DNA of 64,000 nucleotides from Verrucomicrobiota bacterium (GCA_016871675.1 VHCN01000014.1:1-64000); one strand, 5' to 3'. Positions 35,280-58,462 are shown, counted from the first letter of the stretch. Notes: generated by a model not told the origin, from the sequence alone. Made by a program: numbers and translations.

Positions 35280-37106
35280 GTGAAATCCCAGTTCCCGACC
35301 CTGGAGCGCGGACTTCAGTTTGCGCACGAGTTTGCGCGGAAGAACTGGCGCCGCCTGCTTCGCTACCGCGTCCGGCTGTTCATGAGCGAGGAGGCATTCC
35401 ACCTCGTGGTCGCGGGCGTGGTGGGAGTGCTCGGAGGCATCACGAACTTTGTGTTCTACCTTACGACCGACTGGGTGAAGCACTTCACCCTGCGGAAACC
35501 GGGCGAACTTGAGGAAGCCGCCGTGCTGCTCGACGGGTGGCAGCGGATGCTCGTGCCCACGCTCGGCGGACTCGGCGCGGGGCTGGTCTTGTATTGGGGC
35601 CTCAAGCTCGTCGGACGCCCAGACTCGGCGAACTTGCTCGAGGCGGTGGCCGCGGGCGACGGCCGCCTGCGCTTCCGCTACGGGCTCATCAAGGCCGCGT
35701 CCTCCGTGCTGAGCGTGGCGACGGGCGCCTCAATCGGCCGCGAGGGCGTGGTGACAAACCTGACCGCGACGCTCGCCTCGCAGGGCGGCCAGATTGCGCG
35801 ATGGCAGCCATTCCGTCTCCGCATGCTCGTCGCGTGCGGCGCGTCCGCGGGAATGGCGGCGGCTTACGGCGCGCCCATTTCGGGCGCCGTGTTCGCCGCG
35901 CAGATTGTCCTCGGCAACTTCGCGATGAAGCTCTTCGCCCCGCTGATCGTGTCCGCGGTCATCGCATCGGTGGTGTCGCACAGTTTCTTCCTCGTGCCGC
36001 CGTGGTATCAGGTGCCGCAGGTGGAGTTCCGCGACCTGACGCAACTGCCGTGGTTTCTGCTGCTCGGGCTCCTCGCGGGCGTCGTCGGCGCGATGTTCCT
36101 GCGGATGCTGCGCGACATCGAGCTGCTCTTCAGCCGCTTCAACTTGCCGCTGCACCTGCGGCTCGCCGCGGCGGGGCTGGTCGTCGGCATGATCGCCATC
36201 GGCTTCCCGGAGGTCTGGGGCAACGGCTACAGCACGACGAACCGCTTCCTCGAAGGCTCGGTCCCGCTCGAAATCGCATGCGCCCTGCTTTTCGCCAAGC
36301 TCATGTCCACGCTCGTCACCGTCGGCGCGGGAACGGTCGGCGGCGTGTTCACACCCACGCTGTTTCTCGGCGCGGCGCTCGGCGCGACGTTCGGCGGCGT
36401 GCTGCACGCGCTGGGCTGGGCGTCGGCAACGCCCCCACCCATCGGCGCCTTCGCGCTCGTCGGGATGGGCAGCGTGCTCGCGGCGACGGTTCACGCGCCG
36501 CTGCTGGCGATGATTGTGGTGTTCGAGATTTCACTGAACCAGTCGCTCATGCCGCCGCTGATGCTTTCCTGCGCCGTGGCCGCGATCGTCGCGAAGCGCC
36601 TCCATCCGGAGTCCGTTTACACCCAGCCGCTCCAGCTCAAGGGCATCGATGCCGCCTCGGAGGCAAACCTCTTCGGCGCGGCCAGCCACCAGAGTGTCGG
36701 CGACCTGATGCGCGCGCCCGTGCCCCCCGTCCGGGACAACACGCCGCTGCCCGACATCGCCGCGAAGTTCCTCACCACGGCCTACAACTTCATCCCGGTC
36801 GTGGACGCCGGCGGGCACCTGCTCGGGCAGGTCTCGTTGCACGACCTCAAGCAGCACCTCGGCGCGGGCGCGGAGCTCAACTCCGTCATCGCGCTCGACA
36901 TCATGCGCGCCGCGCCCGCGGTGCTCACGCCGAACCAGCTCCTGCCGGACGCGCTGCACGTGCTCCTGTCGAGCGAGCAGCGCAACATTCCCGTGGTGAA
37001 CAATCACAAGGAGCAGTTGCTCGTCGGCTCCCTCGTCCGCGCCGAGGCGCTTGGAACCTTGAGCGAGGCGATTGACGCGAGCTCGGGGCAGCGGGCAAAG
37101 AAGTGA
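35280..37106 (+). CDS. ClC-type chloride channel or exchanger with CBS domains
   Basis: A 608-residue membrane protein that begins at a GTG. The ClC signatures are visible in modified form: GASIGREGVVTNL (the GREGP motif, with Val in place of Pro), GAPISGAVFAAQI and GGVFTPTLFLGAALG (GxFxP motif). About twelve or more hydrophobic segments occupy residues 40-440. Two CBS domains follow (about 470-600, for example LPDIAAKFLTTAYNFIPVVD and LLPDALHVLLSSEQRNIPVVN), a common regulatory addition. Channel or proton-coupled exchange cannot be told. Confidence 0.9.
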   Translation: MKSQFPTLERGLQFAHEFARKNWRRLLRYRVRLFMSEEAFHLVVAGVVGVLGGITNFVFYLTTDWVKHFTLRKPGELEEAAVLLDGWQRMLVPTLGGLGAGLVLYWGLKLVGRPDSANLLEAVAAGDGRLRFRYGLIKAASSVLSVATGASIGREGVVTNLTATLASQGGQIARWQPFRLRMLVACGASAGMAAAYGAPISGAVFAAQIVLGNFAMKLFAPLIVSAVIASVVSHSFFLVPPWYQVPQVEFRDLTQLPWFLLLGLLAGVVGAMFLRMLRDIELLFSRFNLPLHLRLAAAGLVVGMIAIGFPEVWGNGYSTTNRFLEGSVPLEIACALLFAKLMSTLVTVGAGTVGGVFTPTLFLGAALGATFGGVLHALGWASATPPPIGAFALVGMGSVLAATVHAPLLAMIVVFEISLNQSLMPPLMLSCAVAAIVAKRLHPESVYTQPLQLKGIDAASEANLFGAASHQSVGDLMRAPVPPVRDNTPLPDIAAKFLTTAYNFIPVVDAGGHLLGQVSLHDLKQHLGAGAELNSVIALDIMRAAPAVLTPNQLLPDALHVLLSSEQRNIPVVNNHKEQLLVGSLVRAEALGTLSEAIDASSGQRAKK

Positions 37107-37151: not shown

Positions 37152-38393
37152 CTAAAAGCGCAGCGTCACCTGCGCCGCGAGCAGTTGCTCGCCCTGCTGG
37201 CTCGTCCCCTTCTGGTGGCTGAAGCTGTATTGGAGTTTCCCCTGCACGTGCCGGCTCAGGCGCCAGCCGAACGCGGTGTCCACGCGCCACACGTCGTTGT
37301 CCCACGGCTGCGGGCCCGCGGGCGTGGGCACCTTGTCGAAGACCATCTGGTTCCAGCGCACGGCCGCGAAGTGGTTCGCGCCGAGCTTGCGCTTGGCCTC
37401 GACGAAATACGCGAGCGAGTCCGCGTTGCCCACGTTCGGCACCTCGAAGCGCGACGCGATCACTTCGGCCCACACCTGCCAGCCGTGCCGCGCGTAGCTG
37501 ATGTCCTGCCCGATCACCGTCTGCCGGAAATCGCCCGCGCTCGTGCCCGCGGGCGTCACGGTGCGCTGGTCCAGATACGCGCCTTCGCTCACGGATGCGC
37601 CGAGATTCCACGCCGCATTCGGCCGCCAGCCGAGACGACCCGCGACGGTCGTGTGGTCGAACCCGCGGTCATGCGCGTCCCATTGCATCGGGCGCGAGCT
37701 GGGTGCGGCGTTCTTCAACTCGAACGCGTAGTCGAAACCTCCGAGCTGGCCGAACATCGAGCCGCCCGTCGTGTAAGCCGGCCCCCAAAGCACGGGCAGC
37801 CACGCGGGCTTGTTGTCGGCGATGGCCCGGCGGTTCACGAGCCCCTGGCCGGACGCGACGGTCGCCGCGTCGTTCACCGTGGTCATGTGCTCGTAGGGCA
37901 GCGGCGCGTTGATGAACGGATTGTTCCACGAATCATGCCGCGGCACCCACGCGCCGAACACGGTCGCGAATTTGCCCGCCTGCAAATGGAGGCGCGAATC
38001 CTCGAACGGCGTCCACCGCAGCAGGTATTCGTCGAAGCGCGCGGAGCGGACACGCGAGCGGGGGTCGAAGCCGCGGTCCACGCGCGCCTGCACGAGGCTG
38101 TAAAGATGCGGGCCGAGGCGCGTGTCGAGGAAAAGCGAGAGCCGCGGGTTGAAGAACTCGTCCCCGTTGCCGAAGATCATCCCCGGCGGGCGCTGGTCGA
38201 TGTAGTAGCCTTCGAGATCGAGCAACCCGCTGAGGTCGGAGCGGACCGATCCGTTGCGGGATTGGAGGAAGAGCGCGTCGTCGACCTTGTCGAGGAGCGA
38301 CTGGCCGCGGGATGCGAAGGCGAGCGAAAGGAAGACAGTGGCCGCGAGCGCAAGAGGACGACGACGACAAGGACGTGGGCGAAGTGGACTCAT
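37152..38393 (-). CDS. Outer-membrane beta-barrel of unknown substrate
   Basis: A 413-residue protein with a basic leader and signal peptide (RRPLALAATVFLSLAFASRGQ) and alternating strand patterns that end in a C-terminal Phe (LLAAQVTLRF), the beta-barrel assembly signal. The segment LHLQAGKFATVFGAWVPRH and the closing WRVDTAFGWRLSRHVQGK are typical of porins. Its ATG overlaps the cyclase stop by 4 bp, so it is translationally coupled to the sensor. The substrate is unknown. Confidence 0.83.
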   Translation of the reverse strand: MSPLRPRPCRRRPLALAATVFLSLAFASRGQSLLDKVDDALFLQSRNGSVRSDLSGLLDLEGYYIDQRPPGMIFGNGDEFFNPRLSLFLDTRLGPHLYSLVQARVDRGFDPRSRVRSARFDEYLLRWTPFEDSRLHLQAGKFATVFGAWVPRHDSWNNPFINAPLPYEHMTTVNDAATVASGQGLVNRRAIADNKPAWLPVLWGPAYTTGGSMFGQLGGFDYAFELKNAAPSSRPMQWDAHDRGFDHTTVAGRLGWRPNAAWNLGASVSEGAYLDQRTVTPAGTSAGDFRQTVIGQDISYARHGWQVWAEVIASRFEVPNVGNADSLAYFVEAKRKLGANHFAAVRWNQMVFDKVPTPAGPQPWDNDVWRVDTAFGWRLSRHVQGKLQYSFSHQKGTSQQGEQLLAAQVTLRF

Positions 38394-40333
38394 GCTTTCA
38401 CCGCCGCTCCCTTCATCACGGGCTCCGGTGCTTCGCGCACTTCCACCAGGCGATACGCCGTCACGCTCGCATCGAAGCCCTTCAGCCGGAGCTGGTCCTT
38501 TTCCTCCACGACGACGCGGCCGCCGAGCAGGTCGCGCGTGGGCTGGCTGATCACGACTTCGCCTCGCCCGGCCGCGCCGCACAGGCGCGACGCGAGGTTC
38601 ACGCGCTCGCCGATGACGGTGTAGTTGGAGCGGTTCTCCGAGCCCATGTTGCCCGCGAGCACGGGGCCCGTCGCGATGCCGATGCCGAGGTGGAGCTTGC
38701 GCGGCACGATTTCGTTGAGCGCGGCGCGTTCGCGCTGCATCGCCGCGGCGCAGCGGACCGCGTTGAGCGCGTCGTCGCCGTAGCTCTTGGGCGCGCCGAA
38801 CAGCGCCATCACGGAGTCCCCGATGAACTTGTCCACCACGCCGTGGTGTTCGTTCACGATGCCCGTCATCGCCGTCATGTGGTCGTTGAGCATGGCGATG
38901 ACCTCGGCCGGCCCCATGTTCTGCGTCATGGCGGTGAAGCCGCGGATGTCGCAAAAGAGCACGCTGACCTCGCGCAACTCGCCGCCAAGCAGCACCTCGC
39001 CGCTGAGGAGCTGCGCGGCGACGTCCTTGTCCGTCACCTTCACGAGCACGTCGTGGTATTTCTCCTTGAGCGCGAGGCCCTCGGCCATTTCGTTGAACGA
39101 GCGCGCGAGCTGGCCGATCTCGTCGGAACTGCGCACGGGGACCTTGATGCCGAAATCGCCGGCACGGATGTGCGCCGTGCCGCCGACCAGTTCGTTGATG
39201 GGCACGGACAGGCTGTGCGAGAGCAGGAGGCTCAGGAGCAGCGCGGCGACGAGCGCGAACGCGCCGAAGCCGAGGATCTGCGTCCGCAGTTCGCGCTGCG
39301 CCCGCAGCGCGCCCTCCCACGAGTAGAGCCCGACCTTCCACGCGGGACCGAAGGGCGAGCCGGGATTGAGCGGCGTGTAAAAGACACGGTGCGGAATCCG
39401 GTCGAGCGTGAGGATGCAGTCGTCGCGCGGGTCGGGATGCGCCTGAATCTCCTCCAGAAGGAGGCGCGCCAGCTCGGCCCGCGCCGCGTTTGGAATGGTG
39501 TGCGAGTAGATGAGTCCGCCGATGTAGATGCCGTTCTGCAGGTCGGTCACCGCGTTGATCGTCGCCTCGCCGAGGTCGGCGAACGGAAAACCGAGCACGA
39601 GCGCGCCCGCGGTGCGCGACTCGACCTCGTCCACGACGGGCGTGGCGATGACTTCGAGCAGGAAGTTGGGGCGGTTCTCCAGCTTCAGCTCGAAGTAACC
39701 GACCTGCTGGTTGGTCAGCGAGCCGATCACCGAGCCCACCTTCGACATGATGGTGGTGAAGCGCTCGTCGCCGGCCTTGCCGGATTGCGCCCACGCCGGG
39801 TCCGCGAGCACCTTGCCGTCACTGTCCAAGAACGCCAGCACCGTGGCAAACCGCGGCCGGCTCGGGGGCGGGGATCCCTTCGAACCGGATTTCTTCTTCA
39901 TCTCCTCCACGCGGCCGGCGACCGCAGGAATCTTTCGCCGTGGATCGAACGGACGCGCCGCTTCTGGTTGCGGCCGGGCCACGGGCGGTGGTTCCGCGGG
40001 ATCGAACGCGCCGATGCGGCCGTCGGCGGCGAAGATTCTCCGCAGTTCGTCATAGGCGACGCGGTAAATGGTGTCCGCATCGCCCTCGCGCAACGCCGCG
40101 ACGAGCCGGACGTTTTTCTTCACGAGGTCCTGACACTTCTCCTTCACGGCCGCGAGCCGAGCCTCCTGTTCCTTCGGCAGGTAGGTGATCTGCGCCTCGA
40201 TCTTTTCCTTGAACACGCGCTCGTAGGCCGCCTGAACTTTCTTCTGCGTGATGAAGAGCGTCGTGCCGGACACGCCAGCGACGGCAAACAGCATCGCGAG
40301 CAGCAGCTTGAAACGGAAATTCAGCGAAGGCAT
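38390..40333 (-). CDS. Transmembrane class III adenylate/guanylate cyclase with HAMP domain
   Basis: A 647-residue sensor. TM1 spans about residues 8-29. A periplasmic domain of about 320 residues follows (30-352), with two Cys (C67, C306), then TM2 at about 353-372, HAMP to about 430 and a class III cyclase domain (452-630). The cyclase has both metal aspartates (D462 in CDIRGFT and D506 in GDSVMALFG), Lys502, and the transition-state pair N579/R583 (VNLASRL). It should be catalytically competent; adenylate rather than guanylate is my preference, on weak grounds. It lies 7 bp after the cupredoxin gene and overlaps the beta-barrel gene by 4 bp. Confidence 0.9.
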   Translation of the reverse strand: MPSLNFRFKLLLAMLFAVAGVSGTTLFITQKKVQAAYERVFKEKIEAQITYLPKEQEARLAAVKEKCQDLVKKNVRLVAALREGDADTIYRVAYDELRRIFAADGRIGAFDPAEPPPVARPQPEAARPFDPRRKIPAVAGRVEEMKKKSGSKGSPPPSRPRFATVLAFLDSDGKVLADPAWAQSGKAGDERFTTIMSKVGSVIGSLTNQQVGYFELKLENRPNFLLEVIATPVVDEVESRTAGALVLGFPFADLGEATINAVTDLQNGIYIGGLIYSHTIPNAARAELARLLLEEIQAHPDPRDDCILTLDRIPHRVFYTPLNPGSPFGPAWKVGLYSWEGALRAQRELRTQILGFGAFALVAALLLSLLLSHSLSVPINELVGGTAHIRAGDFGIKVPVRSSDEIGQLARSFNEMAEGLALKEKYHDVLVKVTDKDVAAQLLSGEVLLGGELREVSVLFCDIRGFTAMTQNMGPAEVIAMLNDHMTAMTGIVNEHHGVVDKFIGDSVMALFGAPKSYGDDALNAVRCAAAMQRERAALNEIVPRKLHLGIGIATGPVLAGNMGSENRSNYTVIGERVNLASRLCGAAGRGEVVISQPTRDLLGGRVVVEEKDQLRLKGFDASVTAYRLVEVREAPEPVMKGAAVKA

Positions 40334-40340
40334 GGCGGCC

Positions 40341-40988
40341 TCACTTGGCGGGGAACTCGACGCGCACCGTCGCGCCGGACTTCAACGCCACATCGCGCTC
40401 GAGGGTGGTTTTCTCGTCAAGCCACGCCTTGAGCTTGAACGTGCCGGCGGGCAGCCCTTCGAGGCGGAACGTCCCGTTCGTGCTCGTGCGCGTGAAGTGC
40501 GGCGTCTCCAGCACGAGCACGGTCGCGCGCATATGCTCGTGGATTTCGCAATAGAGCTTCACCACGCCGGCCTGGTCGAACACCTGCGACGGCGCGGGCT
40601 CCTCGGCGAGGTAGCGCCCAAGGTCGAAGCGCTTCGGTTTCGAGTAGCTGAAGACGTTGTGGTAGAGGCCGTCCTTGTTCGGGAATTCCACCCGCGTGCC
40701 GCGCTGCACCGGCAGGAGCGACGGCGTGAATTGCAGGCCCTTTTGGATCATTTGCGCCGGCGGCGGATTGGTCGCGGGCGCAAACGTGCCGTCGAGAAAC
40801 ACGACCGCGACGGGCGGTTCCGGCGCGGCCAAGGGCACGCCGGCCTTGACTTGGTAGCGTTGCGTCAATGCCGCGGCCGGCCCGGGAGTGCCCAGCGGCA
40901 CGGTGCCTTCGACGACCGCGGTGTCCGCGGCGCGACTTCGAGTCGCCAGCGCGGCGGCGAGCAGAATCAGTCCGAGGGCGATCTTCAT
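40341..40988 (-). CDS. Secreted cupredoxin with carboxypeptidase-regulatory-like tail
   Basis: A 215-residue protein with a signal peptide (LILLAAALATRSRA-A). A type 1 copper site is complete: His110 in LYHNVFSYS and Cys147-x2-His150-x2-Met153 in YCEIHEHM, the amicyanin/plastocyanin spacing. Residues about 160-215 (TSTNGTFRLEGLPAGTFKL) form a carboxypeptidase-regulatory-like beta domain. Databases often call such proteins methylamine utilization proteins, though no mau genes are here. It is the first gene of a unit with the cyclase and the beta-barrel, so it may feed redox or copper state to the sensor. Confidence 0.85.
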   Translation of the reverse strand: MKIALGLILLAAALATRSRAADTAVVEGTVPLGTPGPAAALTQRYQVKAGVPLAAPEPPVAVVFLDGTFAPATNPPPAQMIQKGLQFTPSLLPVQRGTRVEFPNKDGLYHNVFSYSKPKRFDLGRYLAEEPAPSQVFDQAGVVKLYCEIHEHMRATVLVLETPHFTRTSTNGTFRLEGLPAGTFKLKAWLDEKTTLERDVALKSGATVRVEFPAK

Positions 40989-41104: not shown

Positions 41105-42883
41105 GTGACCGATCCCCTTCGCGCCAAGCTCGCGCAGGTGCCGCACAAGCCGGGCGTCTACCTGCACAAGGACCGCTTCGGCACGGTCATTTACATCGGC
41201 AAGGCGCGCGACCTGCGCAAGCGCGTGGGGCATTATTTCCAGCAGTCGCGGCGCCCGGGATGGGACCTCAAGTTGAACGCGCTCGTGGGCAGCATCCACG
41301 ACTTCGACTGGCATGTGGTGAAATCCGAGCCCGAGTCCCTGCTGCTCGAGTGCAAGCTCATCAAGGAATTCCGGCCGCGCTTCAACGTGGATTTCAAGGA
41401 CGACAAGCGCCTCCTCATGCTGAAGGTGAACCTGAACGACCCGATCCCGCGGTTCTCGCTGACGCGGCTGCGCACGAACGACGGGGCGCGCTACTTCGGG
41501 CCATTCTCCGGGTCGGGCGCGCTCCGGCGCACGCTCGACCTGGTGCGGCACCAGTTCAACCTGCGCGGGTGCCGCCCGCTCACGCCGGCCGAGGCGGACT
41601 ACAAGCACTGCCTCTACGCCCACCTGAAAGTCTGCACCGCCCCGTGCATCGGCAACGTCACGCTCGAGCAATACCGGATGCAAGTCACGGCCGCGTGCGA
41701 TTTCCTCGCCGGACAATGCGAGGAGATGCAGGCGCAGCTCGAGGCCCGGATGAAGCAAGCGGCGGCCGCGCGTGATTTCGAAAAGGCGGCCGCGCTGCGC
41801 GACCTGCTGGCGGACGTCCGCGCCACGACCAGGAAGATGGAGCGCTTCGAGCGCGTGCCTTACACGCTGCCCGTGGCGCCCGACCCGGGGCGGGACCTCG
41901 CGGAGCTTGCGTCCGCGCTCGGCCTGCCCACGCCGCCGGAGCGGATCGAGGGGTTCGACATCTCGAACATCAGCGGCACGTTCGCCGTCGCGTCGCTCGT
42001 GTCGTTCCGCGGCGGCCGGCCCGACCGCGTGAACTACCGGCGGTTCAAGATGAAGACGGTGACGGGCCAGGATGACTTCGCGTGCATGGCCGAAGCGGTG
42101 CGACGGCGATACACGCGAGTGTTGAAGGAGTCGACGGTCCAAGGGTTGAAGTCCAAAGTCGCGGATGCAGGCGATCGGGATGATGAAGCGGGCGGGGCGA
42201 TCCCGCAGGAACTGCAACAGCTGGTCAACGAAGTGAGCGCGAAAGTGCGCCGGGGTCAACCGGTGAGGTCAAAGCCGCCGCCGGAGGCAACGAATGCGCG
42301 CGGGCACGGGCAAGCGGGACAGCGAGACGGAGACGGGGAGCAATCTTCCGAATCGTCCCCCGCACTTTCCCACCCTGCCGTTGTCTCACCCGCGGTCTCG
42401 CGTGTCCATGCCCCGGGCAATCTCCCCGACCTGATCCTCATCGACGGCGGCAAAGGCCAGCTTAACGCCGCGTGCGCGGAGCTTGTGAAACTCGGGCTCG
42501 GCCACATCACCGTCATCGGGCTCGCGAAGGAATTCGAGGAGGTGCACCGGCCCGGCGCGAGCGAACCGCTGCGCCTCGGGCTCGACCATCCGGCGGTCAA
42601 GCTGCTGCAACGCGTCCGCGACGAGTCGCACCGCGTGGCCAACAGCTACAACGCGCAGCTCCGCCTTCGGAAGGTTACCGAGAGTGTGCTCGATGAGTTC
42701 CCCGGCATCGGCGCGGCGCGCAAGCAGGCGCTGCTCAAAAAGTTCGGCTCGTTGCAGCGGCTGCGCATCGCAACGGTCGCGCAGATCGCGGAGGTGCCGG
42801 GCTTCGGCGGGAAGTCCGCGGCGGATTTGAAGCAATTCCTCGAGGCAAGGTCCGTGGCGCCAAAGCCGGGCCCGAAGTCCTAA
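41105..42883 (+). CDS. uvrC: Excinuclease ABC subunit C
   Basis: A 592-residue nucleotide-excision-repair nuclease that begins at a GTG. The GIY-YIG domain is at residues about 14-95 (GVYLHKD, VIYIGKARDL, EFRPRFNVDF), the UvrB-binding UVR motif is at about 205-240, the RNase H-like endonuclease has GFDISNISG, DLILIDGGKGQL and HRVANSYN, and helix-hairpin-helix repeats close the protein (FPGIGAARKQALLKKF). An insertion of about 90 residues (about 340-435) splits the endonuclease domain between TRVLKE and LPDLILIDG. The core is otherwise canonical. Confidence 0.95.
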   Translation: MTDPLRAKLAQVPHKPGVYLHKDRFGTVIYIGKARDLRKRVGHYFQQSRRPGWDLKLNALVGSIHDFDWHVVKSEPESLLLECKLIKEFRPRFNVDFKDDKRLLMLKVNLNDPIPRFSLTRLRTNDGARYFGPFSGSGALRRTLDLVRHQFNLRGCRPLTPAEADYKHCLYAHLKVCTAPCIGNVTLEQYRMQVTAACDFLAGQCEEMQAQLEARMKQAAAARDFEKAAALRDLLADVRATTRKMERFERVPYTLPVAPDPGRDLAELASALGLPTPPERIEGFDISNISGTFAVASLVSFRGGRPDRVNYRRFKMKTVTGQDDFACMAEAVRRRYTRVLKESTVQGLKSKVADAGDRDDEAGGAIPQELQQLVNEVSAKVRRGQPVRSKPPPEATNARGHGQAGQRDGDGEQSSESSPALSHPAVVSPAVSRVHAPGNLPDLILIDGGKGQLNAACAELVKLGLGHITVIGLAKEFEEVHRPGASEPLRLGLDHPAVKLLQRVRDESHRVANSYNAQLRLRKVTESVLDEFPGIGAARKQALLKKFGSLQRLRIATVAQIAEVPGFGGKSAADLKQFLEARSVAPKPGPKS

Positions 42884-58444: not shown

Positions 58445-58462
58445 TTGTGAAAAAAATCACAA
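58445..58462. promoter_or_regulatory. CRP/FNR-type operator upstream of nuoB
   Basis: TTGTGA-AAAAAA-TCACAA is a perfect palindrome that contains TGTGA-N6-TCACA, the exact E. coli CRP consensus. It lies 70 bp before nuoB and just upstream of a plausible -35 box. The other possible target is hflX, whose start lies about 105 bp away on the opposite strand. Confidence 0.65.

Follow-up and report, generated by a model that had tools for sequence, protein, structure and literature searches.

A conserved operon pairs a predicted type 1 copper protein with a predicted adenylate cyclase receptor in Verrucomicrobiota

The three-gene operon

The 64,000-nucleotide stretch of DNA analysed here (the window), from a Verrucomicrobiota bacterium (GCA_016871675.1, VHCN01000014.1:1-64000), carries on its minus strand three closely packed genes, which encode an exported cupredoxin (referred to here as cup), a membrane receptor with a class III nucleotide cyclase as its output, and an outer-membrane barrel (Table 1). 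Separating cup from the receptor gene are 7 bp, and the stop of the receptor and the start of the barrel share the tetranucleotide ATGA, a 4-bp overlap. As both flanking genes, uvrC and a ClC channel gene, lie on the opposite strand, the operon comprises exactly three genes; a sigma-70 promoter scan found no promoter. Genomes with receptors just 38–54% identical show the same gene order, a recurrence that far exceeds chance.

A reading of the window from its sequence alone (the sequence-only reading) had described a tight minus-strand unit of three genes, and the open reading frames, their order and both spacings are as it claimed. The products also match its description: an exported cupredoxin with a complete H-C-H-M copper site and a fused regulatory-like β domain (on which Pfam, a profile match to amicyanin and the ligands agree), a class III cyclase with two transmembrane helices and a periplasmic sensor of about 320 residues (borne out by the HAMP and Guanylate_cyc matches and the helices of the model), and, as the third gene, an outer-membrane barrel with an OmpC-like predicted fold and a C-terminal Phe.

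Table 1 Features of the operon and its flanks, numbered from the first nucleotide of the window.
Feature	Position	Strand	Remarks
cup, exported cupredoxin with C-terminal carboxypeptidase-regulatory-like β domain	40341-40988	-	215 aa
Predicted copper ligand H110	40659-40661	-	constant in 92/92 close homologues; aligned with amicyanin
Predicted copper ligands C147, H150, M153 (CEIHEHM)	40530-40550	-	constant in 92/92 close homologues; amicyanin spacing
Carboxypeptidase regulatory-like domain of cup, residues 155-212	40353-40526	-	Pfam PF13620, above cut-off
Receptor: N-terminal transmembrane helix, periplasmic sensor, transmembrane helix, HAMP, class III cyclase	38390-40333	-	647 aa
Periplasmic dCache-like sensor, about residues 31-350	39284-40243	-	AlphaFold model, Foldseek and VIA matches
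Sensor residue R76, tracks pairing with cup	40106-40108	-	R in 93/93 paired and 3/19 unpaired receptors
HAMP domain, residues 370-420	39074-39226	-	PF00672, 54.5 bits
Class III cyclase domain, Guanylate_cyc residues 454-628	38450-38974	-	PF00211, 95.8 bits
Outer-membrane barrel, C-terminal Phe	37152-38393	-	413 aa; ATG at 38393
uvrC, upstream flank, divergent from operon	41105-42883	+
ClC channel, convergent with operon end	35280-37106	+

The copper protein

Cup is predicted from its sequence to be a type 1 copper protein. Its score against the Pfam family Copper-bind (20.6 bits) falls slightly below the cut-off of 21.2, and its C-terminal part matches CarboxypepD_reg above the cut-off (32.7 bits). 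A profile built from 18 cup homologues matches amicyanin in a PDB search (E = 9e-5) with the ligands aligned, and the C-x2-H-x2-M spacing is that of amicyanin. All 92 distinct close homologues keep the full H-C-H-M set, as do 11 of 12 that are more distant, so that the ligands do not vary freely, a point on which the sequence-only reading had made its proposal depend. Loss of a ligand is confined to two distant copies, the second tandem copy at L065 (HCYL; L065:6935-7636) and one at L068 (HCYM; L068:7159-7851, tandem or divergent), both adjoining hybrid kinases.

The receptor

The cyclase domain carries the catalytic residues D462 and D506 (metal), K502 and T572 (adenine) and N579 and R583 (transition state), and all six positions are constant across 15 receptor homologues. 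Because the adenine-selecting K502/T572 pair is constant and shared with CyaB (PDB 3r5g), the product is predicted to be cyclic AMP (cAMP). The sequence-only reading had allowed either cAMP or cyclic GMP (cGMP); the pair favours the first and speaks against the second. A cGMP enzyme might be suspected from the second-best PDB match of the domain, 2w01, a domain of Synechocystis Cya2, which is a guanylate cyclase (the entry is labelled adenylate cyclase), but 2w01 carries E at the position of the lysine, and on the K/T pair we reject this assignment as very improbable.

The periplasmic part models as a dCache domain. In the AlphaFold model computed from 15 sequences (mean predicted local distance difference test score, pLDDT, 75; predicted template modelling score, pTM, 0.68), long helices at residues 6–73 and 340–372 flank a mixed domain, giving a periplasmic part of about 320 residues, and two tandem PAS-like subdomains stand on the long N-terminal helix, the hallmark of dCache domains. 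Cache or PAS sensor domains make up most of the leading rows in both structure searches, Foldseek and VIA, with TlpQ among the dCache matches of Foldseek, and DvhD, LuxQ, DctB and PctA among those of VIA (Z about 11–14). A sequence search of the sensor against the PDB returned nothing useful, and in a Pfam scan of 15 members of the sensor family a single one matched dCache_1 (7.9e-5). Sensors of distant relatives match dCache_3; a profile comparison with these gave strong scores, which had no negative control and to which common transmembrane helices contribute, and which we take as a hint only.

The barrel

The third gene product models as an OmpC-like porin. It has no Pfam or NCBIfam match, and a sequence search against the PDB gave nothing useful. 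The predicted structure is porin-like (mean pLDDT 73, pTM 0.73, with residues 151–178 and 199–211 unreliable), and OmpC-type porins are its best Foldseek matches (E about 1e-13; template modelling scores 0.58/0.69, of which 0.58 is normalized by the query). A signal peptide, as judged by eye, an antiparallel porin-type barrel in the model and a C-terminal aromatic residue are the features expected of a porin. Among 97 genomes of the same order, members of the barrel family occur only next to cup, bar one 48-residue fragment.

A conserved neighbourhood with exchanged outputs

In the same 97 genomes are 19 further close orthologues of cup. Following it in 16 cases is a gene for the sensor-cyclase (broken in two of them) and in 2 cases a gene for the same sensor joined to a histidine kinase; the remaining locus has cup and barrel only. 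At one locus (L055:1845-3432), a frameshifted or decayed receptor-cyclase copy lies beside an intact cup. When GTDB genomes were scanned with the cup alignment, 402 relatives emerged; the 80 best of them, nearly all labelled Verrucomicrobiota, were combined with the same-order set into 92 distinct close cup loci. By script, the output is a cyclase at 27 of these, a histidine kinase at 49 and a hybrid kinase at 6; contig ends or frameshifts cut 6 loci, and 4 are unclassified (L105 ends at a contig end, L140 encodes its kinase-type receptor in an overlapping frame, and L051 and L119 have no adjacent receptor). A receptor with the same sensor lies directly downstream of cup in 90 of the 92. In a less biased sample, for which 286 genomes were taken evenly across the class, 34 cup-paired receptors were counted from the tables (11 cyclases, 16 kinases and 7 hybrid kinases). 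Cyclase loci form a minority branch within the wider family of cup, sensor and barrel.

The three genes thus stay together in most related genomes, the other point on which the sequence-only reading had staked its proposal. The signalling module that the sequence-only reading had proposed, a periplasmic copper protein encoded with a cyclase receptor, agrees with this conserved neighbourhood, in which the cyclase appears as one of several outputs on a common sensor. Its further statement, that cupredoxins also neighbour GGDEF/EAL proteins, proved correct for distant relatives: cup-like genes on proteobacterial plasmids adjoin EAL-domain proteins, of which the one scanned is dCache_3-HAMP-GGDEF-EAL, and these loci also carry DUF3034 and a truncated haemoglobin, or DUF4394. 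Other distant relatives adjoin hybrid kinases and have a barrel upstream; in the single case scanned, dCache_3 is present and BBP2 matches weakly.

On the sensor tree, cyclase and kinase receptors fall on two sides of a split with 97% support in the Shimodaira–Hasegawa-like approximate likelihood ratio test, and one sensor has therefore been combined with different outputs. At least 3 output changes are needed on this tree, and at least 5 on the cup tree with three outputs, versus 36 for shuffled labels. As judged from these trees, outputs have been exchanged, but rarely; repeated swapping in a strong form was rejected, as the outputs cluster by clade. An instance of exchange is the receptor L173 (from genome G008), which falls in the cyclase clade but has a hybrid kinase output, its cup and barrel lying on another contig.

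The kinase loci mostly have a gene for an OmpR-type regulator adjoining cup or barrel. Such regulators occur at kinase-type (or truncated or unclassified) loci and at no cyclase locus. In many kinase-type loci an exported immunoglobulin-domain protein is encoded directly after the barrel or nearby (for example, L128:4675-6588); the count of 25 loci for this family may be inflated because immunoglobulin domains are promiscuous. Among cultured carriers of the operon, Verrucomicrobium sp. BvORR034/BvORR106 has the cyclase form (L095 and L125) and Chthoniobacter flavus Ellin428 the hybrid-kinase form (L107). The operon is also present in L076 and L078, labelled Proteobacteria bacterium and Klebsiella pneumoniae, respectively, labels that look like those of mislabelled metagenome-assembled genomes.

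A sensor residue that tracks pairing with cup

Nested inside the clade of cup-paired cyclases are nine receptor-cyclases of the same order that adjoin neither cup nor barrel. Comparison of paired with unpaired receptors drew attention to residue 76 of the sensor, which was arginine in 79 of 79 paired receptors of the first data set (cyclases and kinases) and rarely so in unpaired ones; C67 shows a weaker contrast. Further genomes added eight unpaired receptor-cyclases, in which the residue is E (four), V (two), A (one) or D (one), and in each newly added paired receptor that covers the site it is R. The deduplicated totals, whose paired part is shared to some extent with the first set so that mainly the unpaired receptors are new data, span all output types on the paired side and are those given in Table 1; L170, whose alignment is shifted by an insertion, was scored V by hand, and L173 was placed with the paired receptors, as its genome has a cup–barrel pair elsewhere. 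R occurs in three unpaired receptors, L167 and two kinase paralogues, whose genomes all carry cup, and R76 is also kept in two receptors whose cup–barrel pair lies elsewhere. Mapped on the tree, the residue undergoes about 4 changes, 2 of them on well-supported branches and none against expectation. We regard the pattern, with its few independent events, as a sign of coupling between cup and receptor.

Redox, copper and cAMP context

Near nine kinase-type loci (L086, L096, L099, L109, L121, L139, L142, L149 and L150), upstream or downstream, is a gene for DUF3570, accompanied at several of them by ApbE and DUF4266. DUF3570 is flavinylated by ApbE, and extracytosolic electron transfer has been proposed for such clusters (2021 eLife paper, PMC8238504). 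These clusters suggest that in relatives the module may serve periplasmic redox control; a redox context in the window's own genome was dropped from consideration, as DUF3570 is absent there. As for copper, inspection by eye of the gene families common to the loci revealed none for copper transport. The split receptor of G008 (L173:3-1414) lies near genes for a CusF-domain protein and a cupredoxin.

The window's genome (97% complete) has eight matches to cyclic-nucleotide-binding domains, one of them on a histidine kinase-like protein, and no HTH_Crp_2 match at E 0.001. As it lacks such a regulator, the reader of cAMP would not be a standard CRP. An exact TGTGA-N6-TCACA palindrome stands upstream of a nuoB-like gene (window 58446-58461; 0.03 expected per window). 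As the sole copy in a genome with no HTH_Crp_2 regulator, it was dropped as a CRP read-out.

A model for the operon

As far as sequence can establish it, the operon consists of three genes with identified domains, intact ligand and catalytic residues and a record of co-occurrence, built around a sensor common to several outputs. Our preferred reading, to which we assign a probability of roughly 55%, is that it forms an envelope-sensing module in which cup acts on, or reports to, a dCache adenylate cyclase receptor, with the barrel in the same function. The soluble periplasmic cup, which would bind copper in its type 1 site, would contact the dCache domain; the signal would pass through the second transmembrane helix and HAMP to the class III cyclase and give cAMP, and the porin-like barrel would probably admit what cup or the sensor detects. 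The receptor would thus convert the state of cup to cAMP here and to phosphotransfer in relatives. That cup and receptor belong to one pathway is very probable, and direct modulation of the receptor by cup is somewhat favoured; that the signal is copper loading or redox state is a tentative suggestion.

Several observations weigh against this reading. Cup–barrel pairs exist with no adjacent receptor (L051, L119 and L184–L187), and 17 sensor-cyclases overall have no cup neighbour, which means that other inputs are open to the receptor; as separated forms of both kinds exist, neither the receptor nor the cup–barrel pair is obligatory to the other. The association of R76 with cup, strong in counts, is not statistically secure, with too few changes on the tree, and the position was chosen after inspection of the first data set. 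The absence of DUF3570 from the window's genome also belongs here.

The main rival reading takes cup and barrel as the working parts, an electron carrier and a porin that serve a redox or metal reaction of the envelope; the receptor would only sense the substrate and control their expression, and cup would not act on it. It would account for the persistence of each half on its own, accords with the small ligands that dCache domains usually bind and could make use of the flavin electron-transfer genes at some kinase loci. We nevertheless hold it unlikely: no oxidase, dehydrogenase or cytochrome is encoded in the operon, R76 tracks pairing with cup whatever the output, and the window's genome, with no HTH_Crp_2 match, offers no CRP-type DNA-binding partner through which cAMP could control the operon. 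Copper homeostasis, with the barrel as a copper porin, cup as a copper chaperone and a receptor that reads copper supply, is improbable: the intact type 1 site of all close homologues and the CusF-domain and cupredoxin genes near one split receptor are compatible with it, but type 1 sites are typical of electron transfer rather than transport, and copper-transport families were not recognised among those common to the loci.

The separated halves have neighbours of their own. Three receptor-less cup–barrel pairs (L184:5786-10870, L186:4509-9876 and L187:3927-9330) adjoin a Ser/Thr protein kinase, possibly a further output or mere chance; L184 also has an extracytoplasmic function sigma factor (by Pfam), and a similar gene was seen by eye in L186 and L187. 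The unpaired receptor-cyclases L164, L165, L171 and L172 adjoin runs of similar DUF1501-like genes (by eye), and may have adopted another input.

Relation to known systems

The closest known arrangement is that of the proteobacterial operons in which a cupredoxin annotated as 'methylamine utilization protein' accompanies a GGDEF-EAL protein. Their cupredoxin has the same architecture and H-C-H-M set as cup (about 40% identity over half to two thirds of the length) and lies beside a dCache_3-HAMP receptor, but the output is GGDEF-EAL, DUF3034 and a truncated haemoglobin (or DUF4394) are present, and there is no barrel of the window's family. LuxP–LuxQ and other pairs of a periplasmic protein and a Cache receptor would work in a similar way, in that a soluble periplasmic protein is encoded with a Cache-type receptor (LuxQ against the sensor model, Z about 12–13); LuxP, however, binds a ligand and has a different fold, and LuxQ is a hybrid kinase, whereas the window has a cupredoxin partner and a cyclase output. 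The catalytic domain shares its K/T adenine pair with CyaB-type class III adenylate cyclases, from which the receptor differs in its periplasmic dCache and HAMP input and its copper-protein neighbour. Cup resembles amicyanin in type 1 site spacing and by profile match, but has a C-terminal CarboxypepD_reg domain, and its operon has no methylamine dehydrogenase gene.

All components belong to known kinds; what is apparently undescribed is their combination, in which a type 1 copper protein accompanies a dCache adenylate cyclase, together with the family of exchanged outputs. Searches of the open-access PMC set turned up no title or abstract on a cupredoxin–dCache–cyclase operon, subscription papers lying outside the search. 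More generally, and as a tentative proposal, these loci may represent widespread envelope sensors in which a blue-copper protein, in place of a solute-binding protein, as an input subunit of a dCache receptor, reads periplasmic redox or copper state into adenylate cyclase, histidine kinase or hybrid kinase outputs, with R76 marking dependence on cup. If so, a copper protein would join the periplasmic proteins known as input subunits of bacterial receptors, and a function would be suggested for proteins labelled 'methylamine utilization protein'. The family would provide a natural series in which a single sensor is connected to several outputs, and in Verrucomicrobiota it would supply an outside signal for cAMP, here in a genome that shows no CRP-type regulator.

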